DNA of 64,000 nt, from the NCBI GenBank assembly GCA_030427805.1, contig JAUICP010000007.1:62001-126000 (forward strand), in the 5' to 3' direction. A program made the position numbers and the translations under genes. The stretch is from Bdellovibrionia bacterium. Lineage in GTDB: Bacteria; Bdellovibrionota; Bdellovibrionia; Bdellovibrionales; JAGQZY01. Below, in pieces: positions 21,009-51,963 of this stretch (within the stretch, counting starts at the first letter, position 1; each line of letters starts with the position of its first letter). The notes below the pieces were generated by a model. It saw nothing but the letters and a program-made list of their open reading frames with translations. It had not been told where the DNA came from and ran no database searches.

Positions 21009-22283
21009 ATGGGTAAAGCCGAGCTAAAGCATTCTAAAGATCATTATATTAACAAATCAAAGCACTTTTGCATTCTACCCTGGGTTCACTTTCACCTGTG
21101 GCCAAATGGTAATTTTTTACCTTGCTGTATATGGGACTCGTCGTTTCCTATGGGGAACGTCAATACCAATACTCTAAAAGAGGTTTGGAACTCGCAAAAG
21201 ATGCGCGATTTGCGCCTTAAAATGATCGAAGATGAGGCCATTGAACAGTGCAAGACTTGTTACTTTTTTGAACAGGATCTTTCCTTTGAAAGTCTGCGAT
21301 CCTCGGCGAATCTTCAATATCAACACCTTTTTAATCGTGTCGAGGAGACTTTAAAAGACGGTACATCTGAAGACGTCCATATGGCTTATATGGATATTCG
21401 TTTTTCAAATGTTTGTAATTTTAAATGTCGAAGTTGTGGTCCAGATTTAAGTACTAAGTGGTACGAAGATGCAGCCGTTTACGATCCGGGTGGTGGCCCT
21501 CAACTACCCTTGCGCTTGAGAGATAACGATCGCCTTTTTGAAGAACTAGAACCTTTACTCGGTCAAGTTGAAGAAGTGTACTTTGCCGGTGGTGAAGTTT
21601 TCATTATTCCTGAACATTACGAGATTTTAGAAAAGTGGGTTCAATCAGGGCATACCAAAGTAAGGTTGAACTATACAACAAACTTGAGCCAACTCAGTTA
21701 CGGCCGTCATAAAGCACTTGATTATTGGAAACACTTTGATGAGATCCATATTAATGGCAGTCTCGATGCTTCGGGAGCTCGCGGTGAACTGATCCGCAAA
21801 GGAACGAATTGGAAAAAGGTTGAAGAAAACCGTAGAACAATTCTCGAAAAAGCACCTAATGTTAGTTTTACTTTGAATCCTACAATTGGGATTCTCAACG
21901 TCATTCATTTTCCTGATTTTCATCGCGACTGGATAGAAAAGGGCCTTCTCAAACCCCACGAATTAAGGGTTAATCTTCTTAGACAACCACTTTCATTGCG
22001 CAGTGAAATTTTGCCTTTTAAGTTTCGACAAAAATTAAAACAGAAATACGAAGACCATTATCAGTATTTGATCGGCAAAGTTGATAATGAGAATGATGTA
22101 AAACAGATTCGAAGTAATATTGATGCTGTTTTGCAAGTCCTTGACCACCCAGAAGAGCCCGAGAATCTCCCTAAATTCAAGGAATACATGGGACTCCTCG
22201 ATATGATCCGCAAGGAAAAACTCATTGATGTGATTCCCGAATTAAAATTTCTTTACCAAGACCCGGAGAAGGTCTATGGATAA
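21009..22283 (+). CDS. Radical SAM protein with N-terminal twitch/SPASM-like cysteine domain
   Basis: About 424 residues from ATG 21009; a TTG at 20925 would add an unlikely leader. The N-terminus carries an auxiliary-cluster-like region (FCILPW, FLPCC, EQCKTC), and the radical SAM motif CxxxCxxC is at Cys136, Cys140 and Cys143 (CNFKCRSC). FAGGEVFI is the GGE-type SAM-binding motif. Enzymes of this layout cleave S-adenosylmethionine to start radical chemistry on peptides, sugars or cofactors. It is the first of three tandem radical SAM genes (8-bp and 4-bp overlaps), which suggests sequential or complexed action. Substrate unknown. Confidence 0.83.
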   Translation: MGKAELKHSKDHYINKSKHFCILPWVHFHLWPNGNFLPCCIWDSSFPMGNVNTNTLKEVWNSQKMRDLRLKMIEDEAIEQCKTCYFFEQDLSFESLRSSANLQYQHLFNRVEETLKDGTSEDVHMAYMDIRFSNVCNFKCRSCGPDLSTKWYEDAAVYDPGGGPQLPLRLRDNDRLFEELEPLLGQVEEVYFAGGEVFIIPEHYEILEKWVQSGHTKVRLNYTTNLSQLSYGRHKALDYWKHFDEIHINGSLDASGARGELIRKGTNWKKVEENRRTILEKAPNVSFTLNPTIGILNVIHFPDFHRDWIEKGLLKPHELRVNLLRQPLSLRSEILPFKFRQKLKQKYEDHYQYLIGKVDNENDVKQIRSNIDAVLQVLDHPEEPENLPKFKEYMGLLDMIRKEKLIDVIPELKFLYQDPEKVYG

Positions 22284-23307
22284 AGCTCTCATCGGCATTG
22301 TTCCGGGCAAAGAAAAGTATGTTCATATCATTTGGCAGGTGAATGATACCTGCAATTATAAATGTTCCTACTGTAATGAAGGTAATTGGGGAGGTCGTTA
22401 TAAAAACGATAACTTCGAGCAGTTTGAGCCAATATTACAAAAAATCGTTTCTCATTTTAAGGACCAAAATTACAATAACTTTAAAATCTTCTTTTCGGGT
22501 GGAGAACCCAGCCTTTGGAAGCCTCTTATTCCGGTCATCGAATTTTTTCGTGAGAATACGCAAAACCCACGAATTGCCATTAATACGAATCTAAGTCGAT
22601 CTTTGGACTGGTGGAAGAAAAACTATCATTACTTTCAAGATATCATTGCTAGCTTCCATGTTGAATTTGCTGATAAAGATCGTTATCTAGATAATTTTAA
22701 ATTTTTACAGTACCGGATTCCTTATTTGGTGTCTCGAGTTCTCTTGCACGATAAACGCTTTAAAGAGGTCGTTGAATTTGCTGAACGTTTGAAATCAGAG
22801 TCTGACAACTATTATGTTGAATACGCCCCCTTGATGAGTGAGTTGAACTCACATTCTGAAGACCATTATTATGAAGAAGAATGGAAACGAAAGTTCATTG
22901 CAGATCATCAGTTAGATCGACAAAAAGAAGTAGATTTTTGTAATACCTATCGACCCAAAGAAACCTATCACGAAGAACTGCGCGAGGGTGGTCGCAAAGA
23001 ATCTCTAAACTCCAATCGTCTCGTGGCCTTGGGGGAAAATCGCTTTAAAGGCTGGCAGTGCTGGGTTCAGGAGTGTATCTATATTCACCCCAGTGGCGAT
23101 ATCACTATGGGTAGCTGTCGCGTGACTGATAGTATTGGACACTTAAGTACTGGTGAAATTTCTATCCCAAAGGAGTCGGTTATTTGTCCTTTTGAACGAT
23201 GTAATTGCGGAACCGATATCTCAGTGACAAAGCTCCATCCAGAACATCTAAATGACTACATTGATTCTTTTTCCAATCCAATCACTTCTTCGGAGGGATC
23301 ACTTTGA
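22276..23307 (+). CDS. Radical SAM protein with C-terminal cysteine-rich region
   Basis: A 343-residue protein overlapping the previous gene by 8 bp. The radical SAM cluster is at Cys26, Cys30 and Cys33 (CNYKCSYC) and the SAM motif is FFSGGEPSLW. A C-terminal group of cysteines (CWVQEC, GSCRV, CPFERCNCG) probably binds an auxiliary iron-sulfur cluster, as in SPASM-type enzymes. This layout is the reverse of its two neighbours, whose extra cysteines are N-terminal, so the trio is not simple recent duplication. It is probably cytosolic and oxygen-sensitive. Confidence 0.83.
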   Translation: MDKALIGIVPGKEKYVHIIWQVNDTCNYKCSYCNEGNWGGRYKNDNFEQFEPILQKIVSHFKDQNYNNFKIFFSGGEPSLWKPLIPVIEFFRENTQNPRIAINTNLSRSLDWWKKNYHYFQDIIASFHVEFADKDRYLDNFKFLQYRIPYLVSRVLLHDKRFKEVVEFAERLKSESDNYYVEYAPLMSELNSHSEDHYYEEEWKRKFIADHQLDRQKEVDFCNTYRPKETYHEELREGGRKESLNSNRLVALGENRFKGWQCWVQECIYIHPSGDITMGSCRVTDSIGHLSTGEISIPKESVICPFERCNCGTDISVTKLHPEHLNDYIDSFSNPITSSEGSL

Positions 23308-24326
23308 GTGAAGCCATTAAAAAAGAAGATCTCGATAGACTCTTGGACGAAGGAAAATTTTGTCCCCTTCCCTTCCTGCAACTTCAATTGAATCCCTTTG
23401 GAGACATCTCAGCTTGTTGTTTTTCTGGAGAGCACAAAGTCGGCGACATTCAAACAGATTCAATCAAGGATATTTGGAATGGGTCCGAGATTAAAAAATG
23501 GCGCCAGGAGTTTCTTGATGGCAATATTGGAATTTGCAAAAATGCCATTCATGATTTTCAATGCCATAAACAGTACAAACATCTCAATCAATTCGTTGAA
23601 TTAAAGAGTCATCAAGACGACCTACCTCGCATGCTCGATGTGAGACTCAATGGCAAGTGTAATTTAGAGTGTGTTATGTGCGAGGTATGGAAGCAACCGA
23701 ATCAGCTCTACGATAAAAGCGATTTTTGGGAGCTTGGCAAAACGGAAATTTTTCCGAAGCTCTTAGAGGTCATGGTACTCGGAGGAGAACCTTTTATACA
23801 AAAAGACACATTTAGACTTATAGATGAGGTCAGTGAAGTTAATGACCAAGTAAGATGGGCTTTTATTACCAATGCCCACTACAAGTTTAATGAGAAGCTA
23901 AAGTCCTCTCTCGATAAAATTAAAATCAATTCGATTCACATATCCCTGGATAGTATCGATCCCGAGACCTATCCAAAAATCCGACTTCGAGGACGACTTT
24001 CACTGGTTCTTGAAACACTAGATGCCTTTGTAAACTACAAAAAAAGTCGACTTAGAATAGATGATCGCCCTATTGAACTATTCGCTTCGATGACATTTCA
24101 GAAGTTAAATTGGCGGGAAATCCCCGCTTTTCTCGAGTTCTGTATCGAAAAAGGACTCATACCTATTTTTCAGGATGTCGTTGAAAGAGACCACTTAAAT
24201 ATCCGCGGATTGAGTGACGAAGAAAAAGACGAACTGAGAAAAGGCATAGAAAAGTACCGAGAAGGTCACTTCTGGGAGCACCTTAGGGCCGTGCGAATGG
24301 CTTTAGGAGAAGATGGGCTATCTTAG
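23304..24326 (+). CDS. Radical SAM protein with N-terminal twitch/SPASM-like cysteine domain
   Basis: A 340-residue protein starting at TTG, overlapping the previous stop by 4 bp (TTGA) behind a CGGAGGG site. The N-terminal cysteines (FCPLPF, SACCFS, ICKNAI, QCHK) form the auxiliary-cluster-like part, and the radical SAM motif is at Cys119, Cys123 and Cys126 (CNLECVMC) with VLGGEPFI after it. Its layout matches the first gene of the trio. The C-terminal part has the SLDS and LRGR patterns of the family barrel. Its end overlaps the convergent methyltransferase gene by 9 bp. Confidence 0.83.
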   Translation: MSEAIKKEDLDRLLDEGKFCPLPFLQLQLNPFGDISACCFSGEHKVGDIQTDSIKDIWNGSEIKKWRQEFLDGNIGICKNAIHDFQCHKQYKHLNQFVELKSHQDDLPRMLDVRLNGKCNLECVMCEVWKQPNQLYDKSDFWELGKTEIFPKLLEVMVLGGEPFIQKDTFRLIDEVSEVNDQVRWAFITNAHYKFNEKLKSSLDKIKINSIHISLDSIDPETYPKIRLRGRLSLVLETLDAFVNYKKSRLRIDDRPIELFASMTFQKLNWREIPAFLEFCIEKGLIPIFQDVVERDHLNIRGLSDEEKDELRKGIEKYREGHFWEHLRAVRMALGEDGLS

Positions 24327-25025
24327 TTTAAAAATTTCGAAATAGTTGCCCGAGTAATCCCTGGTCAGATAGTCAGCAATTTCGTGGAGCCGGTAAAAAT
24401 TCGGAAAGTGTTTCTTGCCGTTGTTCTTATAAATAATGTAGGCCTTGTGCTTTGACTCTTTCAATACTGGGATGAGCTGATCCATAAAGGGTTTCATAAC
24501 CTCATCCGAAAAGGGGTCATTCATAAAAATAATTTGATCATCTGCTGTATATTCGTAGGTACAGGCATCTTGATCGAGGACTGCGAACTCGACATCACGA
24601 TATTGGGGATTTTTGTCTTGGAAGATTTTAATGTTCTCGCGCGCAACAACATTGAGCTCTTCAAAGAGCTCTATTCCAATTATTTTTTTAAACCCAAACT
24701 CGGCAGCCAAGACGAGAGCCTTTCCCTTGCCCGATCCAATATCGATAAAACGCCCCTCGGGTACTATATCGAGGTCTGAAAAGAGATTATTGAAAGGCCG
24801 ATAGCGAACAGGTTGATAGAAATTGGCAAAATCCTTATTATCCAAGTTTTTTTCGCAGTCTTTTGGGTCATAAAAACCGCTGACCTCGAGCCCTTGAGTG
24901 CGGTTATAATATTCGTCAATGATGGCTTCTTTGCACATACCTAGGGTTTTAATGAGTCCGCGATTCTTGATTCCTGAGGCAAAAGAGTAGTAGCCGATTC
25001 TCATTGTTTCCATAAACTGTCGCAT
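24318..25025 (-). CDS. Class I SAM-dependent methyltransferase
   Basis: A 235-residue protein with the Rossmann SAM motif IDIGSGKGKALVLA followed by an acidic residue in IIGIELFEEL. Motif IV is FMNDPFSDEV. It has no membrane segment. It starts at ATG after GGGGGAGG. It is convergent with the radical SAM trio and divergent from the carbamoyltransferase gene, so it may belong to the same modification cluster. The acceptor atom and substrate are not evident, although a glycan or small-molecule role fits the neighbours. Confidence 0.78.
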   Translation of the reverse strand: MRQFMETMRIGYYSFASGIKNRGLIKTLGMCKEAIIDEYYNRTQGLEVSGFYDPKDCEKNLDNKDFANFYQPVRYRPFNNLFSDLDIVPEGRFIDIGSGKGKALVLAAEFGFKKIIGIELFEELNVVARENIKIFQDKNPQYRDVEFAVLDQDACTYEYTADDQIIFMNDPFSDEVMKPFMDQLIPVLKESKHKAYIIYKNNGKKHFPNFYRLHEIADYLTRDYSGNYFEIFKLR

Positions 25026-25155
25026 TCAGACCTCCCCCATCTCTGACGATAGTTTTCCATAGCTCAGTTCAACTGTCCCCTGGCCAAAAGTCGCTAACGC
25101 CTCTTGTCTTCTTAGGAACCTCCACTCTCGGAATTCTATAAGTTACAATTTAATC

Positions 25156-26874
25156 ATGATTATTTTGGGAATCGTTGCCTACACTCACGATAGTGCTGCC
25201 TGCCTTCTAAAAGATGGAGAAGTGCTCGCATTTATCGAAGAAGAACGCCTCAATCGTGAGAAACATACCACGGCCTTTCCCTATAAAGCTATTTCCGCCA
25301 TTTTAGAAATGGTACCCATTGAATTTAGTGATATTGATCATATCTGCTACTTCTCTCAGCCCTGGCGCGAAATTAGTCAAAACTTAGGGCACTTTATTCG
25401 GTACTTCCCGAAGACATTAAATCTCTTCAGTAACAGTGCCTCTGGTGCCATGGAATCTGGCTTTCTTAGTGCTATAAAAGAGCAAATGAAACTTCGCTCT
25501 CTTCTCGCAAAAAAATTTCCGATTGATGAGCGCCAGAAAATTAGTTTTTTCCCCCACCACCTTTGTCACGCAGCGAGTGCGTATTATATGAGTCCCTTTC
25601 AAGACGCTGCGATCTTGACTCTCGACGGACGAGGCGAGTCAACCACCACACTGATGGCTGAAGCCCATGGTGGCAAAATTGAAGTTCTAAAATCGATTTC
25701 AGTACCCCACTCTCTGGGGCACCTTTACGCGGCGATCACCGAATATTTGGGATTTAAATCTTTCAATGACGAGTGGAAGGTCATGGGGCTTTCTGCCTAC
25801 GGTGGTCCGTCTCAAGTGAAATTTTTCGAAAAGCTTATTGAATACAAGGGACGAGGAAACTTTGAACTGAATTTGGACTATTTTCAGTTTCATACCCACG
25901 GGCAAGATCAATGGTTGAGTGACCTTTTCTACGAAGAATTTGGGCCAAAGCGAAATCCCGATGATGAGATCACGCCTTTACATCAAGACTATGCTTTTGC
26001 TCTACAGTATATGACAGAACTCATTGGATTAGAGCTATCGAGGTACCTGAAAGATCGAACAGGACAGGATCGGCTCTGCCTTGCCGGTGGAGTTGCATTA
26101 AATTGTTTGATGAATTCTCGAATTATCGAAGAGTCAGGGTTTTCTGAGGTTTTTGTGCAACCGATTGCAGGGGATGCTGGTACGGCACTCGGAGCTTGTC
26201 TTCTCAAGTACCAAGAAGGTCAGGATTCAAAGATAAGCCCGCCATTGGCCGATTTATACTGGGGACCTTCTTATAAAGACGAGCAGCTTGAAGAAGCTCT
26301 AAAAACGAATAACCTCAATTTTACTCGACCGGAATCGATCGAAGAAGCGGTTGCCGAAGAAATCGATAAAGGACAAGTGATCTGCTGGTTTCAAGGTAAA
26401 ATGGAAGCGGGGCCAAGGGCCCTTGGCAATCGTTCGATTTTAGCGGACCCCCGGCGCAAAGATATGAAAGACATCCTCAATGAAAAAGTTAAAAAGCGAG
26501 AATACTTTCGTCCCTTCGCTCCCTCTGTCTCCGAGGAGGATTATAAGGACTATTTCGAAATCCCGGGAGACCAACTCTCGCCCTACATGATCCTCACGGG
26601 AAAGGTTAAAAACGAAGCTGCCCCTAAGATTCCGGCCGTTACCCATGTTGACCAAACGGCTCGTATTCAAACCGTGAATGAAAAGCAAAATCCGAAATAT
26701 CACAAACTTATTAAAGCCTTTCAGGCTAAAACGGGGGTTCCCGTTCTTTTGAATACTTCATTCAACGAAAACGAACCCATTGTCTGTAGTCCTCAAGACG
26801 CTATTGACTGTTTTTTGAGAACAGAAATTGACGTTCTCGCGCTCGGTCCCTACCTAGTGATGAGAAAGAAATAG
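25156..26874 (+). CDS. NodU/CmcH/TobZ-family carbamoyltransferase
   Basis: A 572-residue enzyme of the carbamoyltransferase family. The N-terminal Kae1-like part has AYTHDSAACLL, EEERLNR and the metal-binding HHLCHAASAYY, then LTLDGRGE and GGVALNCLMN. The C-terminal YrdC-like part has FQGKMEAGPRALGNRSILADPR at about 411-432 and FRPFAPSV. The family uses carbamoyl phosphate and ATP to O-carbamoylate sugars, Nod factors or antibiotics. The full set of motifs indicates an active enzyme of normal length. It fits a role in modifying a surface sugar or secondary metabolite made by the surrounding genes. Confidence 0.92.
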   Translation: MIILGIVAYTHDSAACLLKDGEVLAFIEEERLNREKHTTAFPYKAISAILEMVPIEFSDIDHICYFSQPWREISQNLGHFIRYFPKTLNLFSNSASGAMESGFLSAIKEQMKLRSLLAKKFPIDERQKISFFPHHLCHAASAYYMSPFQDAAILTLDGRGESTTTLMAEAHGGKIEVLKSISVPHSLGHLYAAITEYLGFKSFNDEWKVMGLSAYGGPSQVKFFEKLIEYKGRGNFELNLDYFQFHTHGQDQWLSDLFYEEFGPKRNPDDEITPLHQDYAFALQYMTELIGLELSRYLKDRTGQDRLCLAGGVALNCLMNSRIIEESGFSEVFVQPIAGDAGTALGACLLKYQEGQDSKISPPLADLYWGPSYKDEQLEEALKTNNLNFTRPESIEEAVAEEIDKGQVICWFQGKMEAGPRALGNRSILADPRRKDMKDILNEKVKKREYFRPFAPSVSEEDYKDYFEIPGDQLSPYMILTGKVKNEAAPKIPAVTHVDQTARIQTVNEKQNPKYHKLIKAFQAKTGVPVLLNTSFNENEPIVCSPQDAIDCFLRTEIDVLALGPYLVMRKK

Positions 26875-26921
26875 AGCCAACCGGAATATAAATTACATTT
26901 CATATTCTTTGAATTTGATAT

Positions 26922-28028
26922 CTAACTTGAGGGAATTTTCTCGAAATATTTATAGAGAAGGTTAGTTTCGACCTGACAGTTCCAATAACATTCTCTGCAG
27001 TCCCTGATGCCATCTCGTTTTTCTTTTAAGTCCTGTGAATGCCAATAATTTGCCAGTCCTCCAGTGTCTCTAATATTGGCGAAGGCTCTCTTTGTTTCGT
27101 AGAACGTAAAACAGGGGAAGATATCGCCATAGCAATCAACCAGCAAAGTTGTATAACCCGCGTAGCATTTTATGGGCAAAGGTTTACCGAGAAAAAATGA
27201 TTCAAACATCTCTAAGTATTCTATAGATGATTCAATGAAGTCATCTTTGCGTTTTTCTTCGCAGAGTCGATCTAAGCTTCTCTTTAATTTCTCTTCGCGA
27301 TCTTTTTTTAATTCTGGATTAGAAGTTTTATCACTTCCGATGGTGTGCACTGGCATAAAGCCAATACTATCAGCACCGGACTTCTTGGCCATTTCAATAA
27401 TCGCTGGGAAATCACCGATATTATCTTCTGAAAGTACCGTGTTTATATTCACTTTGTAGTTTCGATTGGCCCAATTCGCCACCAAATCAATACCGTGTAG
27501 AGCGCGATCAAAAGACCCAGGAATTCCCCGAATCTTATCGTGGATCTCAGCTTTGTGGCCGTCCAGAGAAACAGTAATTGAGTCAATTCCAGTATCGATG
27601 AACTCCTCAAAATTTTTCTCCCTTATAAACCAGCCATTAGTCGTGATCTGGGCAATCATTTTATTGTCTTTGATTTCACGGATGATCGGAAAGAGGTCTT
27701 TGTGCAGAAACGGCTCTCCACCGGAAATTCCGACTCCAGAGGTTCCGATTTTTCGATAATCACGAATTATTTGTTTGTAGTCTTCAAGACCGAGAATCTC
27801 TCGCCCCTCTTTAACAAAACCCTGATGGCGTTGGGGTAAATCACACATAATACAGCGAAGATTACAGTTGTAGGTCAAACAGAGGTCCCCTTCAATGGGG
27901 CCAGAAAGGGATTTCTTAAGGAAATAGGAGGCCAAGGTCCCCAAATAACGGGAAGGATACTGATATATAGATTTCAGTCCGTTTTGTTGAATTCCTTGTT
28001 TTAGGTACTGTAAATAGGTTTTTCTCAA
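26922..28028 (-). CDS. Radical SAM/SPASM protein
   Basis: A 368-residue protein. The radical SAM cluster is at Cys55, Cys59 and Cys62 (CNLRCIMC), the SAM motif is ISGGEPFLH, and a C-terminal SPASM-type region has CYAGY, DCYGDIFPC and CRECYWNC. This is the classical layout of enzymes that modify peptides or carry out sugar radical chemistry. It is the fourth radical SAM gene here but is divergent from the two membrane glycosyltransferases, with which it shares a 126-bp intergenic region. Substrate unknown; I found no obvious peptide precursor nearby. Confidence 0.87.
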   Translation of the reverse strand: MRKTYLQYLKQGIQQNGLKSIYQYPSRYLGTLASYFLKKSLSGPIEGDLCLTYNCNLRCIMCDLPQRHQGFVKEGREILGLEDYKQIIRDYRKIGTSGVGISGGEPFLHKDLFPIIREIKDNKMIAQITTNGWFIREKNFEEFIDTGIDSITVSLDGHKAEIHDKIRGIPGSFDRALHGIDLVANWANRNYKVNINTVLSEDNIGDFPAIIEMAKKSGADSIGFMPVHTIGSDKTSNPELKKDREEKLKRSLDRLCEEKRKDDFIESSIEYLEMFESFFLGKPLPIKCYAGYTTLLVDCYGDIFPCFTFYETKRAFANIRDTGGLANYWHSQDLKEKRDGIRDCRECYWNCQVETNLLYKYFEKIPSS

Positions 28029-28153
28029 AGTTTGCTTCCCTTAATATCTCTACTTAAAGTCTGACAAAAAACGGGGTGGTTTTCAATGTGAACCCGTATT
28101 ATACTGAAGTTCGTCTAATTTTGGTAAATATATGAATTAATTGAGTAATTCGA

Positions 28154-30127
28154 ATGAAGTTTCAGCTCGTTTTAATCACCTTTGTCTACTTGGTCATCGC
28201 CCTTATTTTTCAAGGAGTGGACTTTTTCTATCAACCAGTCCCCTCTGAGCCGCGAAAAATAGATCCCTACACCTATTATAATTTACCACTAATGATTTTT
28301 ATGACGGGTTTACTCGGGTATCGCCTTTGGCAAAGCAAAGTAAACTTGGAAAGTTTTTTTCAGCTTCCCAATTTCAAAAGTATAAAGATTTGGTTTCTTC
28401 TACTTGTAGGTGGCTTATTAATCGGTTTGAGTATTTACGAATTTTCAGATCGATCCATTTGGCTTGATGAGTATACGCAAATAAAATTCATGGAAATTCG
28501 TTCTGTCTTACTTTATTCAGCGAAATCTCAACAAACTCCGCTGGATTACTTCTATTCATTGGGTGTTTTAGTTTTGTTCGGTTTTTCTGAGGTAGCCCTT
28601 CGCTGCGTGCCCATTATTAGCTTTGTATTGGGAGGCTTGCTTTTAACGTCCTATGGGCTCAAGAAGTCCAAATCCTACGTATTCAGTTCCTCGATCGCTA
28701 TCGCCTACGCTTTAAATCCTCTCATCTTTTATCTAAGTATCGAGGCTCGACCAACGCATTTGGCAGCCCTATTTAGTATCATCTTTATTCTCTACCTCGG
28801 CGAGAGCCTTTTTAAAGACGGCGACTTTGATTGGAAAGAGTTTTTCCCGATCTCGATGACGTTAAATCTCTCTGCCGGGCTACAACCACTGTGGCTTTTT
28901 TGCTCAATGGCACCATTTATTCTCGTTTGGTTGTTCAGAAGAGATAAAGAAGTGGCAAAAAAATGGTTTCTCGTCAATTTAGCAAGCTTCGTTTGTATGA
29001 TTCCTTTTCTCTATAACATTCATTATCGAAGCTCACTCGCCTTTCAATTTAAAGAAAGTTTCGCAGGTGGCGTTGCCGAGTATTTTAAGAACTTCTCTAT
29101 AGCTACCTACGAACTCTATTGGATTGCATTTTCCCAATCTCTAATTCTCATAATAAGCACAATTATTTTGTTTTTTATTTCTTTTCGAAAAGAAAAATCT
29201 TTTTTATCTCGATACTTTATGTTCCTCGGTATTCTCGTGTTCTTCGTTGTCAGTTTTGATTTGTTTTTTAAAAGCTATATCAATTGGAATCTTTTTATTA
29301 GATATGTTGTCGTCCTACCGATTGCCGCCCTTTCTTTTATTGCGCTCCAAGGACAGTATCTTTATCAAGCTCAACGTAAAATGTTTTCAAGTCTTCTTTT
29401 TCTTGTAATTTGTTTGGCTAGTACCGGATTTGTTTTTTCTGAGAGATACCATGAGCATCATCGTATCCAGGCCGGAGATGTCCCTAAAAAACAACAATAT
29501 CATTATATTCAACATACATCGTCTGATTATGATCTCATTTCAAATATGGTAGTCGGTGCGATTAGTAAATGGAATCCCGATATTTTCGTTGCTTGGGAAT
29601 TTTACTATAATCAAGAGGGTCGCGCTCAATTCGTGACCACGTATAATAAAAATAATCCTGAACCTTTTTACGAAATGGACTTAATTGTCGAGCCCATGGA
29701 GTTTTTCGAGCGAGGGGTTCCCTTTAAGATATACTTCTTTGTCGATGTGAATAATGCCTATAAAATCGAGGATTTCTGGACAGAAGCAGGACTCGACTAC
29801 GAACACCACTTTTTCAAGAATGCCCACCAAATGTTTGTTATAAATATCCCGGCGGAAAATGGTTTAGAACATTATTTTAAATACCTCTATACAATCATTG
29901 AAAAAGCCCCTGATAAACGGATGATTCCTCAAATCTATGACCGGCTTCTTTTTTACTACTACTACCTAAAAGACGAAGAAAAGGTAAAAGAAATTTTTAA
30001 GTATTATACCGAAGATCTTCTTGATGTCGGCGACCAGAAATTTAGAAACGTCGCTGAATACCAACTCGAAGTTCGAAAGCGCATTGAGGAAAAGATTTTC
30101 ACGGAAGAGGAATACAAAATCAAATGA
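28154..30127 (+). CDS. Membrane glycosyltransferase-like protein (GT39/ArnT-like), copy 1
   Basis: A 657-residue protein with about a dozen hydrophobic segments up to about residue 430 and a soluble C-terminal part. The WLDEY at 103-107 is an acidic pair in the first external loop, as in GT-C enzymes such as ArnT and protein mannosyltransferases, which use polyprenyl-phosphate sugars. Other shared blocks are SQQTPLDYFYS, SIEARPTHLA and SAGLQPLWLF. It overlaps copy 2 by 4 bp. The C-terminal tail (about 550-657) is helical and charged, TPR-like in pattern. The fold call rests on topology and the DE motif. Confidence 0.72.
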   Translation: MKFQLVLITFVYLVIALIFQGVDFFYQPVPSEPRKIDPYTYYNLPLMIFMTGLLGYRLWQSKVNLESFFQLPNFKSIKIWFLLLVGGLLIGLSIYEFSDRSIWLDEYTQIKFMEIRSVLLYSAKSQQTPLDYFYSLGVLVLFGFSEVALRCVPIISFVLGGLLLTSYGLKKSKSYVFSSSIAIAYALNPLIFYLSIEARPTHLAALFSIIFILYLGESLFKDGDFDWKEFFPISMTLNLSAGLQPLWLFCSMAPFILVWLFRRDKEVAKKWFLVNLASFVCMIPFLYNIHYRSSLAFQFKESFAGGVAEYFKNFSIATYELYWIAFSQSLILIISTIILFFISFRKEKSFLSRYFMFLGILVFFVVSFDLFFKSYINWNLFIRYVVVLPIAALSFIALQGQYLYQAQRKMFSSLLFLVICLASTGFVFSERYHEHHRIQAGDVPKKQQYHYIQHTSSDYDLISNMVVGAISKWNPDIFVAWEFYYNQEGRAQFVTTYNKNNPEPFYEMDLIVEPMEFFERGVPFKIYFFVDVNNAYKIEDFWTEAGLDYEHHFFKNAHQMFVINIPAENGLEHYFKYLYTIIEKAPDKRMIPQIYDRLLFYYYYLKDEEKVKEIFKYYTEDLLDVGDQKFRNVAEYQLEVRKRIEEKIFTEEEYKIK

Positions 30128-32112
30128 CCAATACGCCAAATCGCTTTAATTTCATTATAGGCATTTATGGTTTTGTTATTTGCCTGTTTATTTTGGCGAT
30201 TGGAATCTATGAGCTCTTCACTATAAACGAAGAATTTATACCCACGTTTACCTACGCCCACCTCTCAATGATACTCGTTTTCTTACTCATAGCCTCTTAC
30301 GCAATTTTCACGTATCGCGCGCCCATCACTACGATTTTCAGAGATTTTAATGGCAAAGAATTGATTCTATACGTACTCACACTTTCTTGTGGCGCTTTTT
30401 GTTTGTATTACGAAAATTCCATGCGTTCCATTCGGCTCGATGAATTCACCCAGTTCTTTAATATTTTACAGGAAACCTATTCCATCTCGCGATATGCCGC
30501 CGAATCTCAACAAACTCCGATGGACTATTACTTTGGACTTTTTGCCGGAACTCTTTTTGATCTTGAACTCATCTCGTACCGCCTATTTCCTTGCCTCTTC
30601 TTTCTTTTGACTATCGTCTTTATTAATATCTTCACAAGAGAGGTGAGAATTGGGCTATCACTGCGGTTTCTAATACCTTTACTCTATGTATCCTTCCCGC
30701 TGATTTCCTATCAAAGTGTTGAGGCAAGACCTATTTACTTAGTAATGCACTTTGCAGTGCTTTTTCTTTCGACGGTATATATTTTTCTGCAAAAAAAAAT
30801 GTGGTCGTGGCCCATATTTTCTCTCGTGGCCTTTCTCTTTACATTTTCGGCAGGACTACAACCGATAATGATATTCTTTATTTTCATGTTCTATCTGTTA
30901 GTAACGGGACTTCTCAGTTTTAGGAGCGAGAAGAAGATAATAGCCTCCTTTGTTTTTGTTTCGGTTTTGGGCTTGGCTAATAGTCTCTATATTAGGCATG
31001 TCAGCCTACCGATGAATCAATTCCACAGTAATTGGCTCGACAAGTTCACTCTTTATTTAGAGCGCCTAAACTACGAACACTTAGAGCCCTATTTTAGAAG
31101 TTTTAATCCCTACGTTCTTCTTTTTCCGGTTCTCTTGATAGGAACCTTAATCTTTTTAAAGAAATTAAAGGGGCCATCCTTAAGATTTTATCTTGCATTA
31201 ATACTCTCAATCATTAGCTTCACGGTCATCTATGACACCTTCTACTACACCTATATCAATTGGTTCCCGATCGTTGACCGCTACGTCATTGTCGTTCCCC
31301 TATTTGGCTTTTTCTTGTTTGTAATTATAGCCAAGGACTTGGTTGCGATTACTAGGAAGAAGCTCGTAACCCATGGGATCAACCTCGTACTTGGTTTCTC
31401 AATTGTTTTGTCGACTGTTCGACATGAGGCCTATGTTGAACATTATCGAATTCATGAATCTCTACCGACACGTGAAATTTACGAAGATATAAAACGCCTT
31501 ATGACTGACCAGTCCGGGGCTCAGATGATGGTTCCCAGGTCCATAAAAACAAATCAATTGAGCCTTTGGATTGCGCCAAGGGTTTATCTCAACAAAAAGG
31601 AATTTAGCTACCTCAGTAAATATTCAAATGTTTTGCACGATATTAGTCATTATCAACTCGTACTTGATAAGGATGACCTCGAAAATAGAAGGGCAAATAA
31701 ATTTATTCTCGTATTGTTTCAGGAGGCAGACGGCAGCATATTTACCTTTTTAAGAGAGCGCTTTCCAGACTCTTGGGTCGACCCATCAGATAATAGATAT
31801 ACCCTTTTCCAATTTGACCTTAATCCAGAAGACCCCACGGGGAGTATTGTAGAACTCTTTAAACAAGTTGTTGAAAACACCGAAGCACAGTTTAGCTTTT
31901 CATTCTTCAAAGTCATTCTTCACTACGCCTTGGTGCGAGAAGATATTGATCTTATAGACAACGTCGCCGACTACTATACAAGGGATCACTTTTGGGTGGA
32001 TAAAGATGAACCCATGGCCATTGATGAAAACGCCTATAAAGATTTGAAAGCAAAAGCCCTCGAGGCTCTAAGGTTGAGAAAAGAAGAACTCATGGGACTT
32101 GCCAACGAGTAG
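30124..32112 (+). CDS. Membrane glycosyltransferase-like protein (GT39/ArnT-like), copy 2
   Basis: A 662-residue paralogue of copy 1, with IRLDEFTQF, SQQTPMDYYFG, SVEARPIYLV and SAGLQPIMIF in the same order. The tandem arrangement with a 4-bp overlap indicates co-expression. Copy 1 and the distant copy 3 at 44901 share more of these blocks with each other than with copy 2, so the tandem neighbour is the more diverged one. It has the same multi-pass topology and soluble C-terminal tail. Presumed donor and acceptor are unknown. Confidence 0.7.
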   Translation: MTNTPNRFNFIIGIYGFVICLFILAIGIYELFTINEEFIPTFTYAHLSMILVFLLIASYAIFTYRAPITTIFRDFNGKELILYVLTLSCGAFCLYYENSMRSIRLDEFTQFFNILQETYSISRYAAESQQTPMDYYFGLFAGTLFDLELISYRLFPCLFFLLTIVFINIFTREVRIGLSLRFLIPLLYVSFPLISYQSVEARPIYLVMHFAVLFLSTVYIFLQKKMWSWPIFSLVAFLFTFSAGLQPIMIFFIFMFYLLVTGLLSFRSEKKIIASFVFVSVLGLANSLYIRHVSLPMNQFHSNWLDKFTLYLERLNYEHLEPYFRSFNPYVLLFPVLLIGTLIFLKKLKGPSLRFYLALILSIISFTVIYDTFYYTYINWFPIVDRYVIVVPLFGFFLFVIIAKDLVAITRKKLVTHGINLVLGFSIVLSTVRHEAYVEHYRIHESLPTREIYEDIKRLMTDQSGAQMMVPRSIKTNQLSLWIAPRVYLNKKEFSYLSKYSNVLHDISHYQLVLDKDDLENRRANKFILVLFQEADGSIFTFLRERFPDSWVDPSDNRYTLFQFDLNPEDPTGSIVELFKQVVENTEAQFSFSFFKVILHYALVREDIDLIDNVADYYTRDHFWVDKDEPMAIDENAYKDLKAKALEALRLRKEELMGLANE

Positions 32113-37578: not shown

Positions 37579-38355
37579 CTACATCGATTCTAAGGATGAA
37601 ATTGTAAAGTCACCTTCATTGAGATTTTCAAAAGAAATGTTTTTCACGGTTAGAATAGTCTGACTTCTGGTTCTAAGGTTCTTCACCTTGAGCTTCTGTG
37701 CGCGCCAAACCTTACCGTACTTTTTGTAGTTACTAAATTGCACCTTCTTGCTGAGCTTTCCCCGTTTATTGTAGTAACTCACTTTCATAATTCGGTAATT
37801 TTTGACATCAATCCAAGTTTTAATCTTACTGTAAGAGGAAGCCGACTTATCCTTGACCTTGCTCAGAATAATAGCAATCTTCTTACCCGACTTCTCATAG
37901 ACTTTTTCGACCTTGTTTTCGAAGTTCTTATAGGTCGAGGTGCTCAGATCTTCGTAACTCAAATCAGAATCTAAAAAATTGCCGCCCTTTCCTGAAGAGG
38001 TAATTCGACGAGATCGCCGTTCAGAGGGTAAGAAAAGCCATTGATTTTCTTCTGATCCTTTTTCATCAATACTCAGAAATCCAACTCCGCGTAAATCTTC
38101 TGGCGCTTGGAGTTTGACCAGAGCTTTTTTGGTCGATTGATTCTGCTTTTTAATGGTGAGCTCACGTTCCTTTTCAGAACCATCTCTACCCTTTATCAAC
38201 ATCTTCAACTGAGCAACCTCGTTGGAGGCACGAGTATTTACCTCGACCTTTTCGAGAATTTCATCGGCTGTCATTTCGCCAGCTTGGACATTCGAAACCA
38301 AAATGAATGAACCAATGGCGAGCCCTATTAGTAATTTATTTGCTAAATTAAGCAT
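37579..38355 (-). CDS. LolA-like outer-membrane lipoprotein-sorting family protein
   Basis: A 258-residue protein with a signal peptide ending VQA. Its pattern (EILEKVEVNTRA, KALVKLQAPEDLRGVGFLS, WLFLPSERRSRRI, then YEDLS, TWIDVKNYRIMKVSYY) matches the LolA-like family that often partners RND/MMPL pumps. These proteins have a hydrophobic pocket that shuttles lipidated molecules across the periplasm. It overlaps the MMPL transporter gene by 8 bp and is encoded after it. It is likely the periplasmic carrier for the pump's cargo, which the sequence does not reveal. Confidence 0.8.
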   Translation of the reverse strand: MLNLANKLLIGLAIGSFILVSNVQAGEMTADEILEKVEVNTRASNEVAQLKMLIKGRDGSEKERELTIKKQNQSTKKALVKLQAPEDLRGVGFLSIDEKGSEENQWLFLPSERRSRRITSSGKGGNFLDSDLSYEDLSTSTYKNFENKVEKVYEKSGKKIAIILSKVKDKSASSYSKIKTWIDVKNYRIMKVSYYNKRGKLSKKVQFSNYKKYGKVWRAQKLKVKNLRTRSQTILTVKNISFENLNEGDFTISSLESM

Positions 38356-40633
38356 GTTTAGCGTCCTTTCCTAAGCTATCAAAACTTTTGAATATATATT
38401 TTTCTTTTAAAACTTTTATACCTAATATGAGTCTCGGCAATAAATAGAGATCTGCGAATAGACCACTCAATATGGCTACGACCATAAATATGCCAAAACT
38501 TTGGCTGACACCAAATTGACTAAATACGAAAATTGAAAATCCCGCCATACTAGTCAGACTAGAAAGCAAACATCCCCCTCGTTCTCTTCGGAAGATTGTC
38601 AGAATGTCAACATTGCTTGTCTTGTTTGCCAGTTGCTCTCTGAGGGAGTTTAGGAGATAAATTGTATTATCAAAGGCGAGCCCTAGCGAAATAGAAAATA
38701 CAATGGCAATTCCGGGCTTTATGGGAATTTGAAAAATAAGCAGTAGGGACAAAAGAGAAACTGCGGGCACAAGGTTGGGAAGAATCGCCAACAGTGACCA
38801 GCTTAAAGAGCGAAACTGAAGAAGAATCAGTAAGAAAATAAAACCGAGTGCACTAAAAAAACCGAATATCAGGCGCTCTGAGAGTTCTCGATTGATTTGA
38901 TGATGGCTGAGAGCCTGACCCGCAACTAAGACTTCAGACTCTGAAAAACTGTTTTGAGCTTGCTCCTTAATTTGTGAAACGAGTGAAATTATCTCGGCTG
39001 AATTTTTATCTTTCAAGTAAAGGGCTACACGCGTCGATTGACCACTGGGGCTAATAAAGTAGTCAATGGGATTTTCTTCGCTCGTTCCATACAAAAACAA
39101 AGTCTCTTTAATTTTTGCATCGTCTTCAATTCTACGTTCTTTATGACTTGCTAGGTTGATAAAGTCTGAAAGCGCTAAAGCACTTCCTACTTCATTTTGT
39201 TTACGGAGCCAACCTAAAAAACCCTCTAGTCGTAATAGTTGATCTGATTGCTTAAAACTATTTTTAGCACTTTTGCTATTGATCACTAAATTGAGAGGCA
39301 ATAGACCTCCCATGTTTTCGTCAATATATGAGTTGGCTAACTGAATTCGATTCCCCTGGGGTAGATCATCCATAAGACGGGTCGACCAGTTGAGACCCTT
39401 AGAAAGTTGAAGTGACGTCGCAACAACAAGGCCAATTAATAATCCCAAGGCAAGAACTGGGAATACTCTCTTTGTTCTTTGCAACTGAGTTGTTATGGAG
39501 GCGAAAAAACTGAAATTGCGTGGTTCTGGAAGCCTAATATGGGCGTAAAGTAGAGGAAGAAAAACCAAAGAAAGCAAGGTAACAAGACTGACACTCAAGC
39601 AAACTCCAAGACCGAATTGGCTAATCACGGGCACTGATGAAGGTATCAGACAAGCAAAACCTATGATCGTAGTTAGGCTCGCTAAAATTTGCGATCTAAA
39701 AAGCCTCCTACTGGTTTGATGAATTAATTCAGTATGATTCGTTTGATTGTATTGAGAGCCTTTCCAAAGATTAATCTGGTAGTGTGAGGCGATGGAGATA
39801 TATGTTATCGCGATCAATATTGGAATACTAGAAGTCAGGACTGTAAACGGAAGATCCAGGATATTTAATATCCCGAGAGACAGAATATTGAGTACAAGAA
39901 GCGAGAAAAAACAAATTATTGGAGCAGCAATGCCCTTGAACACGATCGAAATAACGAGAAGAGCAAGGATCAATGATAACAAGGTAAAGAGCGCAATTTC
40001 AGAATTCAACATGCGGCTCATTTCGTTGCCAAATACTGGGATACCACTCAAGTAGAATTCTTCAGAGAAGTTTTCTTCGAGAATCCTATTCAGTTCAGAA
40101 ATAAGTACTGACCGATTCTCCTTGCTGAGCGGTTCCGTATGCAAAAGAATGTTAGTCGCCCTTCCATCTTGAGAGAGAAACTGTGGAACTATAGTAGGGT
40201 TCTCGAGAACTCTCGCCTTATCTTCGAGGTCGGATATCGAGCCTAGATTAAAATGATTGGCACCAAGTATGACAATGGGTAAGTTTTGAATAGTGGTTAA
40301 ATACTCTACACTTTCTAATTCTTCCAGCTGCTCTGTCAGTTCGCTGAGCTTATGCAGTGAATCATCTTCAAGCCATGTCTCGCTTTCTGGATGGGTCAAA
40401 CTGATGAGAATAGGGCTCGTCTCTGTTAAAAGAAAATTATTCCTAATTTTTTCCTGAAGGTCGATACTCGGATGATTTTTTGGTTGAAATTGTTTTATAG
40501 AGTATTTCGTTTGGATACGGTTTAAAAAGAGCGCAAAAAAGATGGTCACTAATAGCAAAAGGCTAAAAGAAACTATGAGAGCTTTTTTCCCAAGAATTTG
40601 ATATTTAAATTTTTTCGAAAAAGAACTTTCCAT
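38348..40633 (-). CDS. MMPL/RND-family transporter
   Basis: A 761-residue membrane protein in two homologous halves, each with one helix, a large periplasmic domain and a cluster of about five helices (helices near residues 20-40, 200-350, then 390-410 and 600-740). The length and paired layout fit MMPL- and HpnN-type exporters, which move lipids, hopanoids or sterols. Conserved blocks GLAFDNTIYLLNSLRE and RLMDDLPQGN are in the usual places. The gene is followed by the LolA-like gene, with the outer-membrane barrel a few kb away. Substrate unknown; lipid export is an inference. Confidence 0.87.
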   Translation of the reverse strand: MESSFSKKFKYQILGKKALIVSFSLLLLVTIFFALFLNRIQTKYSIKQFQPKNHPSIDLQEKIRNNFLLTETSPILISLTHPESETWLEDDSLHKLSELTEQLEELESVEYLTTIQNLPIVILGANHFNLGSISDLEDKARVLENPTIVPQFLSQDGRATNILLHTEPLSKENRSVLISELNRILEENFSEEFYLSGIPVFGNEMSRMLNSEIALFTLLSLILALLVISIVFKGIAAPIICFFSLLVLNILSLGILNILDLPFTVLTSSIPILIAITYISIASHYQINLWKGSQYNQTNHTELIHQTSRRLFRSQILASLTTIIGFACLIPSSVPVISQFGLGVCLSVSLVTLLSLVFLPLLYAHIRLPEPRNFSFFASITTQLQRTKRVFPVLALGLLIGLVVATSLQLSKGLNWSTRLMDDLPQGNRIQLANSYIDENMGGLLPLNLVINSKSAKNSFKQSDQLLRLEGFLGWLRKQNEVGSALALSDFINLASHKERRIEDDAKIKETLFLYGTSEENPIDYFISPSGQSTRVALYLKDKNSAEIISLVSQIKEQAQNSFSESEVLVAGQALSHHQINRELSERLIFGFFSALGFIFLLILLQFRSLSWSLLAILPNLVPAVSLLSLLLIFQIPIKPGIAIVFSISLGLAFDNTIYLLNSLREQLANKTSNVDILTIFRRERGGCLLSSLTSMAGFSIFVFSQFGVSQSFGIFMVVAILSGLFADLYLLPRLILGIKVLKEKYIFKSFDSLGKDAKHA

Positions 40634-44900: not shown

Positions 44901-46868
44901 ATGCGAAACCTTCTGTTCATTCTCTGCTTTATTTACTCATTCATCGCACTGCCTGCGGTTTTAGCAGAAGTATTTATTAAACCCAGTGACCTTTTTGACG
45001 GCTTCACCTATTACTTTATTTTTATATTTCTCATCGCATTTATGCTACTCGCAAAACAAATTCCTGGTCACTTCCTAGGATTTAAAGAATCTCTTAAAAA
45101 TGAAGGTATCTTTAATAAAAATAATCTTTGGCTTTTTTCTTTGGCGGCACTTTCTTTAATTGGAGTCATATTTTTCAACATTGACTACCGTTCTATTTGG
45201 ATTGATGAATACTCCCAGATTTTTGACCTTAAAGAGAGATCGATTGTCACCTATGCCGCCTATTCTCAGCAAACTCCTCTGGATTACTACTACTCTTATA
45301 TCGTTTTCAATTTATTCGGCTACTCAGAGTGGGCCGTTCGATTTGTACCCAGCTTAAGCTACTTACTTTCAGGTCTATTAATTACTGGATTTGCTTTAAA
45401 ATATTCGAAGTCTTATTTGGTAAGTCTTTTTATACTTCTTCTTTTTATTGGCCATCCCCTGGTCTTTTACTACAGCATCGAAGCCCGACCGACCCACCTG
45501 GCATCACTTTTTTCGATCATCTATCTCAGCTACGTACTTGAAGTCATAAAATCCGAAAAAGACTTCAACTGGAAGGACTTTCTACCACTCAGCTTTTTCT
45601 TTTTAATCTCGGCAGGCCTACAGCCGATTTGGCTTTTCTGCGCCATCCTCCCTTGGCTGTTGATGCAAGCACTTAAAAATAAAAACCAGGCCCCGGCTCG
45701 GCTCATTTTACTCCACTCAATCAGTCTTCTAGTGATGACTCCACTTCTTATAAACATCTACCTTGAGTCGACAAAGATCACGCAGTTTCACGAGAGTTTT
45801 TTAGGTGGCGTAAAAAATTACTTAGAAAATATGAGTTTCCACAACTTTGAAGTCTATTTTAGGAATATAGTTTTCCTCCTTCTCGGAATGATTCTCCTAT
45901 TTTCTTTTAAATTCACAAAGAAATATCTAAAAGAAGCGGTCTTCAATCTTACGACTCTAATTCTCTTTGTGGCCTTCTTTATATTTAGCTTTGACCTCTT
46001 TTTTCGAAGCTACATTAATTGGGATCTTTATGATCGCTACTTTATCGTCCTCCCTTATTCACTCATTCTGTTTCTTTGTTTTCATTCACCCAGCGATCTC
46101 CTCCCATCAAAATCGATAGTCAGTAAGAAAACTGTTCTGTTTACACTGCCCGCCCTTCTGATAATTACATTTCAAGTCAGTGACCCCTTTCATGTCAGTG
46201 CGGTGTTAGATCAAAGCTTTCCACTTCGCGAACGCTATAAGATCATAAAAGACCATTCCTCTGCTGACGACGTCATTGAGTTCTTTGATCTAGGGACCTT
46301 CAAAATGTGGAACCCAGGACTCTTGACGGCCCGCGAGTTTTACTACAGCGAAAAAGGGGCTGCTAAATTTCCCTTCCCAAAAAATGGAGCACTCAATGGG
46401 GACCCATTTGAAGAGATCGATTTAGCGATACTTCCCATGAAGGTTTTTGAAAGAGACTTATCTTTCAAAGTGTTTATGATTTTGGAATCCGATAATAAAA
46501 TTAATTTCCTCAATATTTGGAAAGAAGAAGGACTTGATTTTAGAAGTTTTCCCATTAGAAACGGCCATAAAGTCGTCGAAATTCAAATCCCCGCCGAAGA
46601 TAGCCTCGAAATTTATCTCAACTATCTGGAATCCATAGCCGAACGCCACGATGCTTCCGAAGCGGTACAACTCTACGATCGCCTTCTTTACTATTATTAT
46701 CACCAAGATGAATCAGAAAAAGTTGAAGAAATTCTCAAGGAATTTGACAAGCACTACTTTTCTAAGCGAGACGATTTCGAAGAAAACATTTTTCAGTTTA
46801 AAATTGATCGCCGTCTTCGCCTGCGGGATAAAATCAATCAGGACGCCCCAATCAAACCGGGGTCCTAA
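44901..46868 (+). CDS. Membrane glycosyltransferase-like protein (GT39/ArnT-like), copy 3
   Basis: A 655-residue paralogue of the tandem pair at 28154 and 30124, with IWIDEYSQI, SQQTPLDYYYS, SIEARPTHLAS and SAGLQPIWLF. It is closer to copy 1 than copy 2 is, yet lies 15 kb away and next to an N-acyltransferase. Multi-pass N-terminal part (about 1-430) and helical soluble tail. It may transfer a sugar to a lipid or glycan. A dispersed duplication with conserved tail implies functional specialisation. Confidence 0.7.
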   Translation: MRNLLFILCFIYSFIALPAVLAEVFIKPSDLFDGFTYYFIFIFLIAFMLLAKQIPGHFLGFKESLKNEGIFNKNNLWLFSLAALSLIGVIFFNIDYRSIWIDEYSQIFDLKERSIVTYAAYSQQTPLDYYYSYIVFNLFGYSEWAVRFVPSLSYLLSGLLITGFALKYSKSYLVSLFILLLFIGHPLVFYYSIEARPTHLASLFSIIYLSYVLEVIKSEKDFNWKDFLPLSFFFLISAGLQPIWLFCAILPWLLMQALKNKNQAPARLILLHSISLLVMTPLLINIYLESTKITQFHESFLGGVKNYLENMSFHNFEVYFRNIVFLLLGMILLFSFKFTKKYLKEAVFNLTTLILFVAFFIFSFDLFFRSYINWDLYDRYFIVLPYSLILFLCFHSPSDLLPSKSIVSKKTVLFTLPALLIITFQVSDPFHVSAVLDQSFPLRERYKIIKDHSSADDVIEFFDLGTFKMWNPGLLTAREFYYSEKGAAKFPFPKNGALNGDPFEEIDLAILPMKVFERDLSFKVFMILESDNKINFLNIWKEEGLDFRSFPIRNGHKVVEIQIPAEDSLEIYLNYLESIAERHDASEAVQLYDRLLYYYYHQDESEKVEEILKEFDKHYFSKRDDFEENIFQFKIDRRLRLRDKINQDAPIKPGS

Positions 46869-50053: not shown

Positions 50054-50782
50054 TCAAATTTTGACGCCCACGAAGCGATAGTAAGGGACTCGATCGAGCG
50101 GAAGATAGGGAACTTTTGCAAACCCCTCAATCAGATCTTTTTGTTGAAATCGATACTTGAGATAAGGCAAATGATCAGGGCTGAGGTTAACGTTATCAAA
50201 GCCAAACCACATGGGCCAGAAATGTCTCTTCCACCAATTATGGGTCCGACTATCTGGATTAAATTTTCTGCTTGAATAAAAATCTACAACTGCAATTTGA
50301 CCACCTGGAATTAATAATTCATAGGCTCTATCAATAGCCCGAAACCAATCTGGGATCATAGTTAGCGAATATGAAAAGGTGACAAGGTCATATTTCTGGG
50401 GACTCTCGAAATCGCTTACATCTTTTTCGTGTGTTTTGACGTTTTTAAAGCCTTCAAGAGAAATTTTCTTTTCAGCTTGGGCCAATAAAGACCCTGATAA
50501 ATCGACCAAATCAATTTCTGAAAAATTACGGGTATCGACAAAATCGAGGTTTGACCCAGTACCAGCGCCCAGGTCGAGCCATCGACAAGACCCTGGCAAC
50601 TCGAGAGAAGCCATCAGGTCTCTGCGCCCCTGAAGTAGACGTTCTCTAAAAGAATCGTAGTCTTCGGCTTGGGATGAATAAAACGATTCTAAGCGATCTT
50701 GATGACTCACTCCTCGGACCGGCTGCATGGTTAATTTATAAAGTGTTTTTAAATCTCTAATGAATTCTTTTGCTTTCATCAT
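50054..50782 (-). CDS. btaB: BtaB-like betaine-lipid N-methyltransferase
   Basis: A 242-residue SAM methyltransferase. The SAM motif is WLDLGAGTGSN, the acidic loop follows in IDLVDLSGS, and later TFSYSLTMIPDWF and PGGQIAVVDFYS fit the class. Alone this would be generic, but it overlaps btaA by 4 bp (ATGA), and the bacterial pathway for diacylglyceryl-N,N,N-trimethylhomoserine uses exactly this BtaA-BtaB pair. BtaB would methylate the homoserine amine three times. The motif RYRFQQKDLIEGFAKVP near the end agrees with BtaB-type tails. No membrane segment. Confidence 0.8.
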   Translation of the reverse strand: MMKAKEFIRDLKTLYKLTMQPVRGVSHQDRLESFYSSQAEDYDSFRERLLQGRRDLMASLELPGSCRWLDLGAGTGSNLDFVDTRNFSEIDLVDLSGSLLAQAEKKISLEGFKNVKTHEKDVSDFESPQKYDLVTFSYSLTMIPDWFRAIDRAYELLIPGGQIAVVDFYSSRKFNPDSRTHNWWKRHFWPMWFGFDNVNLSPDHLPYLKYRFQQKDLIEGFAKVPYLPLDRVPYYRFVGVKI

Positions 50783-51963
50783 GCAAGTTGTCCAATAAAA
50801 AAGTTTCCATAGGTGTGAACCCGATCTTTTTTGTGAAGACTCTGGGCCAAGTCTTTATTGTAATTCAAGAGCTCACCCAATTGTGCATAAACCCCCTGAT
50901 AGGCAACTTCAATAGGATCGATAAAATCACACCGAGTTCCAGCCGTTCGCCAGAGGAACTGAGCTGAATCACAGGCTCGATTGATCATTGCCTGCCACTC
51001 TTGAACCAGCACGGGATACTTCTTATAAGAAAGCCAATCCATATGGTCTAAGAGTACATATTTACTAATTTGACCCGAAAAATTATTTAGAAAATCCAAG
51101 ATTGATGTCGTCTGAGGTTTAATGACATCAACCTTTCCTGCTTTTAACTCATTGAAATGGTTTTCTTGCAAATAACGAGGGCAACGACTTTCTGAGTAAC
51201 TTCCATGAAAGTAGAGCCACCAAAAATAATTATCGTGAAGCGGGAGCTTAGTGAATACATACTCGATACAATCTTTAGCGAATTCCACAATGCCGCCTGA
51301 GTAGGTCTTATCGATTTGTTGCCTTTGTGGCCTGGGCACCCCCAGCATGGCCAGGCTCGCATCCCAGCTCATTATCCAGTCCACAGATTTATTCCAAATC
51401 AAATCTTTAACGTATCGATCATAAATTTCTTTCTGTTCTTGGATACTCTGACTTGCAAACAATTGGTAACCAAGATCTCGCATCTTCTTAAAACCAAGAT
51501 AGTAATACATGCCTCGGGCAAAGCGCCCCGATGTACCGCGAAAATAAAATCCACTCCCCTCAGTGAAATACTCTTTTTTGCCGTCCCAAAACTTTCGAGA
51601 TTCCATACTTAAAAATGGACGCAACTTCTCTTTGTAAACTTGATCGAATCCAGGGTAATAACCCTTGCCGAAAATATCAAAAAAGAGATCGTAGTCCAAG
51701 TTGCGGATGCCGGCGATTTTCAATTCGATCAGTGCTGTTTGAGCTGGATTAACATCTACACAGTAAATTGACTTCGGACTTTCAATGGCGTAGTCGAGGG
51801 CGTTACACCCCGCCGAAGTGATCATTAAAACTTCATCTTCTGGAGTTAAGTTCATGGCCTCTCGATCCAATCGAGGATCTTCCCAACATTGGTTGTAAAC
51901 CAAATTTTTTTGATGAACTAAATCAAATAGCCGCTGACTGCCCCAATTTACAAGACTTGCCAT
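50779..51963 (-). CDS. btaA: BtaA, SAM:diacylglycerol 3-amino-3-carboxypropyltransferase
   Basis: A 394-residue enzyme of the DUF3419 (BtaA) family. I chose ATG 51961-51963 after AAGGGGCG; the frame runs to 52026 but those residues look non-coding. The family pattern is clear: YNQCWEDPRLDREAM, TSAGCNALDY, VDVNPAQTALIELK, GRFARGMYYYLGF and GVPRPQRQ. It transfers the 3-amino-3-carboxypropyl group of SAM to diacylglycerol, giving the precursor of betaine lipid, which BtaB then methylates. Betaine lipids replace phospholipids when phosphate is scarce. It is co-translated with btaB. Confidence 0.88.
   Translation of the reverse strand: MASLVNWGSQRLFDLVHQKNLVYNQCWEDPRLDREAMNLTPEDEVLMITSAGCNALDYAIESPKSIYCVDVNPAQTALIELKIAGIRNLDYDLFFDIFGKGYYPGFDQVYKEKLRPFLSMESRKFWDGKKEYFTEGSGFYFRGTSGRFARGMYYYLGFKKMRDLGYQLFASQSIQEQKEIYDRYVKDLIWNKSVDWIMSWDASLAMLGVPRPQRQQIDKTYSGGIVEFAKDCIEYVFTKLPLHDNYFWWLYFHGSYSESRCPRYLQENHFNELKAGKVDVIKPQTTSILDFLNNFSGQISKYVLLDHMDWLSYKKYPVLVQEWQAMINRACDSAQFLWRTAGTRCDFIDPIEVAYQGVYAQLGELLNYNKDLAQSLHKKDRVHTYGNFFIGQLA

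Follow-up and report, generated by a model that had tools for sequence, protein, structure and literature searches.

The stretch of DNA analysed here (the window; 64,000 nucleotides from a Bdellovibrionia bacterium) contains, between positions 21009 and 32112, four genes for radical SAM enzymes (catalysts of difficult chemical changes that proceed through free radicals), together with genes for a carbamoyltransferase, a methyltransferase and two large membrane proteins. The features are as follows.

21009..22283, + strand: A, radical SAM enzyme with an N-terminal SPASM/twitch domain, N_Twi family (Pfam SPASM and Radical_SAM; NF033640)
22276..23307, + strand: B, radical SAM enzyme with a C-terminal cysteine domain absent from Pfam and NCBIfam (Radical_SAM, 32.7 bits)
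23008..23235 (limits approximate), + strand: C-terminal auxiliary domain of B (alignment)
23304..24326, + strand: C, radical SAM enzyme with an N-terminal SPASM domain, of a separate subfamily close to N_Twi
24318..25025, − strand: MT, class I SAM methyltransferase with a DOT1-type fold (Pfam DOT1)
25156..26874, + strand: NodU/CmcH-type O-carbamoyltransferase, called NodU below (Pfam Carbam_trans_N and Carbam_trans_C)
26922..28028, − strand: D, radical SAM/SPASM enzyme (Radical_SAM core, then C-terminal SPASM)
28154..30127, + strand: GT1, putative GT-C-like multi-pass membrane glycosyltransferase (motifs; PMT_2 match of a homologue)
30124..32112, + strand: GT2, paralogue of GT1 (24% identity, motifs in common)
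44901..46868, + strand: GT3, third membrane protein of the GT1 family (38% identity to GT1)

Open reading frames and domains placed all eight genes from A to GT2 where the original prediction had set them, including the fourth SPASM-type gene, the NodU/CmcH enzyme, the methyltransferase and the two membrane proteins; GT3 lies 12.8 kb away from the cluster, and its belonging to the system is uncertain. The prediction of three overlapping radical SAM genes, two with N-terminal and one with C-terminal auxiliary cysteines, likewise agreed with the domains of A and C on the one hand and B on the other. A and B overlap by 8 nt, with GGAGAAGG preceding the start of B, and 4-nt overlaps join B to C and GT1 to GT2. 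The ATG at 21009 was preferred as the start of A over the longest-ORF start at 20925, because the trio orthologues align from 21009. Since MT and D are encoded on the minus strand, the eight genes are not a single operon, which is also ruled out by the conservation pattern; judged by gene direction, the set comprises at least five transcription units.

A, B, C and D all exceeded the Pfam Radical_SAM cut-off (29.5 bits) and carry the CxxxCxxC motif (4/4). A is a full member of the N_Twi family, with 383.6 bits against the NCBIfam model NF033640 (curated cut-off 170 bits), whereas C has the domain order of the family (N-terminal SPASM, then radical SAM), yet scores 128.8 bits, below the cut-off, and forms its own group. 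An assigned reaction was looked for in the case of NF033640, and none was found. Unlike this family, B is devoid of the N-terminal domain and matched no such model over its cut-off; its cysteine region gave no SPASM match, and no library domain of Pfam or NCBIfam was matched by the C-terminal cysteines. The cysteines of B that are invariant among the trio orthologues are C26/C30/C33, C262, C281, C304, C309 and C311, and B combines five conserved auxiliary cysteines with twitch-like fold matches. The best PDB matches of its AF2 model (pLDDT 81) were BlsE (top), anSME, BtrN, SuiB and SpeY; these fold matches were weak (TM ~0.5 or less), and MoaA and the peptide maturases SuiB and SkfB were also among them. 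The substrates of BtrN and SpeY are sugars or aminocyclitols. BlsE, BtrN and SpeY give twitch/SPASM-type fold matches to B but differ from the trio in being single enzymes of antibiotic pathways, with ~14% identity to B; by sequence BlsE is closest to D, whose nearest solved chain is this cytosylglucuronate decarboxylase (64 bits).

The auxiliary domain is C-terminal in B, N-terminal in the relatives at loci L086 and L124, and a separate protein of 114–118 aa at L032, L036 and L040; judging by these sequences, it is a mobile module. In the last three genomes the B-like enzyme is encoded by two overlapping ORFs, one for the radical SAM core and one for the auxiliary domain (L032:9295-10400, L036:9834-10939, L040:9075-10120). 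Other B relatives of ~650 aa have the auxiliary-domain motif repeated at the C-terminus (L126:9862-11805, L129:3413-5377, L129:9968-11929).

The two Carbam_trans domains, at 231.9 and 246.2 bits, together span the full length of the carbamoyltransferase, as in TobZ, GdmN and NodU/CmcH; the PDB carbamoyltransferase 7xb6 matched at 340 bits, and GdmN and TobZ were matched as well. The enzyme is unlike the nodulation NodU, scoring 171.7 bits against the equivalog NF041651, far under its cut-off of 1000 bits. MT exceeded the Pfam DOT1 cut-off (28.8 against 23 bits), with a histone H3K79 methyltransferase as the nearest solved chain (E=8.6e-7). No Pfam or NCBIfam model was matched directly by GT1 or GT2; both keep the motifs RSI..DE and EARP, and a GT1 homologue (L207:5329-7287) matched PMT_2 at 28.3 bits (cut-off 26.1). 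The structure model of GT1 was poor (pLDDT 57), and its GT-C fold matches, to OST catalytic chains and AftA, were weak (E 0.016–0.1).

The genes A, B and C form a real, co-inherited unit, conserved across distant lineages of a single phylum. First searches outside the genus yielded only distant B relatives (~28% identity), nearly all from Bdellovibrionota; at 15 of 25 such loci, B and an N_Twi gene are at most 2 kb apart. C relatives occur in 43 of the 369 genomes of the phylum (E<=1e-30). A-B-C are adjacent in five genomes of four families, among related genomes that are mostly draft MAGs: the window genome (G000), its sister species G001, G076 (L197), G254 (L230) and G357 (L229). The search with C revealed L197, which has the order A, B, C of the window and the same 8-nt A/B overlap, and phylum-wide searches revealed L230, with the gene order and strand of the window, and L229, where A is divergent from B-C. 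The five genomes form one clade in each of the three gene trees (SH-aLRT 99 for A, 100 for B and 98 for C). The trees of A and B are concordant in branching and at odds with kinship, pairing G076 with G357, although G076 is of the same order as the window genome (moderate support, 81–97). Their agreement against kinship suggests that the trio was probably transferred as a unit. A phage origin was rejected: among phages, C matched nothing, and A matched no more than two Vibrio phages, at 65 bits.

The overlapping genes and concordant trees of the trio, along with purifying selection, argue against ordinary accretion, i.e., the gathering of independent genes in a variable genomic island, even though N_Twi enzymes are abundant in these genomes and searches in the same-family species G002–G004 gave no orthologue of the trio. 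We consider accretion highly improbable as an account of the locus, and for the trio itself it is unlikely.

Outside the window genome, the full eight-gene set was found in one genome only, G001 (Bdellovibrionia bacterium 2_bin.24), which represents the other species of the genus; identity is 92–98%, and the flanks of the set are also syntenic between the two genomes. In comparison with this sister species, dN/dS was 0.03–0.14 for all eight genes, corresponding to purifying selection, so that all eight are maintained. These flanks are not common to the same-family species, and no empty insertion site is therefore visible. The condition set for refuting the original proposal, a lack of any joint conservation of the genes, does not hold for the trio, whose members are neighbours in five genomes and four families; the eight-gene set is confined to one genus. 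A literature search, with most subscription papers beyond its reach, found no published study of this gene set.

This restriction to one genus with syntenic flanks, together with the opposite gene directions and the trio neighbours that vary between families, would fit a trio that works alone on a small molecule or cofactor, with the genes for the carbamoyltransferase, MT, D and GT-C proteins as chance neighbours. We regard this explanation as distinctly unlikely, since bystanders should not recur, and the pairs C with NodU, GT-C with MT, and GT-C with N_Twi do recur in unrelated genera. C and the carbamoyltransferase occur together in six loci outside the trio (L200, L231, L232, L239, L243 and L244; domains checked in two). 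GT1 homologues, present in 15 of the 369 genomes of the phylum, lie beside N_Twi-type genes (L106, L108, L207, L216) and beside MT homologues (L203, 150 bits; L208, 248 bits), and several of these stretches hold UDP/GDP-sugar dehydrogenases, GT2-type genes, AsnB-type amidotransferases or GDP-mannose 4,6-dehydratase. Within the order, 32 of the 37 NodU-bearing genomes have N_Twi above the cut-off, against 45 of 141 overall; shuffles within families gave a mean of 14.5 and a maximum of 24, and none of the 20,000 reached 32. The physical proximity of NodU and N_Twi in the order, at about seven loci, is not clearly above chance.

The chief rival to a glycan substrate is a peptide one: the trio would mature a ribosomally synthesized peptide, or a protein, encoded elsewhere, and the glycan-type neighbours would be extra tailoring enzymes or bystanders. 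The closest relatives of B within the plasmid collection belong to a peptide-type operon of Photobacterium/Vibrio plasmids, where they directly follow an ORF that is rich in glycine and has a double-glycine leader (L...EIxxVDGG), and precede HlyD and a C39-peptidase ABC transporter; C relatives are found beside PqqD-like, S74 and signal-peptidase-like ORFs, and many of the curated SPASM models close to A-C represent peptide maturases. On the other hand, no precursor candidate was found in the gaps of the window, L197, L230 and L229, no C39 exporter was seen beside any trio, and whole-genome searches gave no PqqD match in G000, G001 and G076 (three of the five trio genomes) and no S74 match in G000 and G001; PqqD is present in G254 and G357, on contigs other than that of the trio. 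We hold a peptide substrate to be rather unlikely. None of the trio loci examined contradicts the original statement that no peptide precursor is encoded, and the lack of PqqD in three trio genomes adds to it; B and C relatives elsewhere, however, do lie in peptide-type settings, so that a sugar is no more than the likelier substrate. Two narrower versions were rejected, namely a RiPP with a local precursor, as the trio loci have no candidate ORF, and PqqD-dependent maturation in this genus, as PqqD is absent from the genome.

The RiPP-looking operon of the Photobacterium and Vibrio plasmids (L245:11132-19401, L246:8224-16345) comprises genes for an acyltransferase, a SelO-family protein, a GT2-type protein, the Gly-rich ORF with the double-glycine leader, the B-like radical SAM enzyme, HlyD and the C39 ABC transporter. 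At L231, L232, L241, L244 and L200, C relatives are accompanied by a carbamoyltransferase, signal-peptidase-like ORFs, and PqqD-like proteins, S74-only proteins or both (as a fusion in L200 and L244), possibly a separate peptide- or protein-linked system.

The reading that we favour, with a probability of roughly 0.47, is that the A-B-C trio tailors the sugars of a surface glycan. It draws on the co-inheritance of the trio, on the neighbourhoods in which GT1, C, N_Twi and carbamoyltransferase genes accompany glycan genes, on the co-occurrence of NodU with N_Twi, on the fold matches of B, and on loci of Azospirillum, Methylomagnum and Brachyspira. A plasmid of Azospirillum brasilense (NZ_CP059454.1) brings together an N_Twi-like enzyme (121 bits, below the cut-off), a carbamoyltransferase, FkbM methyltransferases and epimerases, but unlike the window it has FkbM instead of DOT1-type methyltransferases and no A-B-C trio. 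A Methylomagnum plasmid locus holds glycosyltransferases and AsnB. Plasmid pBHWA1 of Brachyspira hyodysenteriae shares with the window tandem radical SAM genes, located there in a surface-sugar locus with rfbF and rfbC, and four genes of this region have been suggested to act in LOS synthesis or glycosylation (PMC4267127). These radical SAM genes are not orthologous to those of the window (matches of 19–59 bits), and the stretch examined has neither a carbamoyltransferase nor a GT-C gene, unlike the window. Against the glycan reading, no sugar-nucleotide enzyme was identified inside the window cluster, and around the trio loci of G076 and G254 neither carbamoyltransferase nor MT nor GT-C turned up; the peptide-type settings of B and C relatives and the weakness of the fold matches of B also count against it.

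According to the glycan reading, A, B and C would change sugar residues of a surface glycan by radical chemistry, with dehydrogenation, epimerisation, deoxygenation or a C-C change as candidate reactions, probably at the stage of precursors linked to a nucleotide or a lipid. In this genus, the O-carbamoyltransferase and the methyltransferase would decorate these sugars too, D would be a fourth radical SAM enzyme accompanying the trio, and GT1 and GT2, as putative GT-C enzymes, would carry out the transfer of lipid-phosphate sugars at the outer side of the inner membrane. We infer the sugar substrate, the order of the steps and the participation of the flanking genes in the same pathway. The original proposal of carbamoylated, methylated and radical-modified sugars is strengthened by the recurrent links with glycan genes. 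The eight genes are not evident as one system, being intact within one genus only, where unrelated flanks are conserved too. A stronger version, in which A-B-C is an obligate multi-enzyme machine performing successive radical steps on one surface-glycan sugar, spread in Bdellovibrionota as a mobile cassette, is doubtful.

If the sugars of surface glycans are indeed the substrate, radical SAM chemistry would extend to the envelope glycans of Bdellovibrionota. The phylum is known for predators, and its surface structure could bear on recognition or self-protection. The phylum has many N_Twi radical SAM enzymes, and the compact co-inherited cassette, with three genes and bounded likely substrates, provides a tractable way into them.

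Bdellovibrionota genomes hold many more such radical SAM enzymes in tandem arrays. In the window genome, ~13 N_Twi-type radical SAM ORFs are located within ~30 kb (G000:C1:745469-774899, L032 and L218) with AspH-like and other genes; this array is denser than the A-B-C cluster, and much of it is also present in G001 (L036) and part in G044 (L040). A second phylum-wide set (L033, in the window genome at C7:145-150 kb; L027; L138-L148) consists of a B-like enzyme (371–393 aa), a radical SAM enzyme (~364 aa) and an N_Twi enzyme (~465 aa), often with a methyltransferase-like ORF of 230 aa. Elsewhere in the window, LolA-like and MMPL-type genes (37579-40633) may form an export pair for a lipid or lipoprotein, and DUF3419 (BtaA-like) and methyltransferase (BtaB-like) genes (50054-52026) suggest betaine lipid synthesis.
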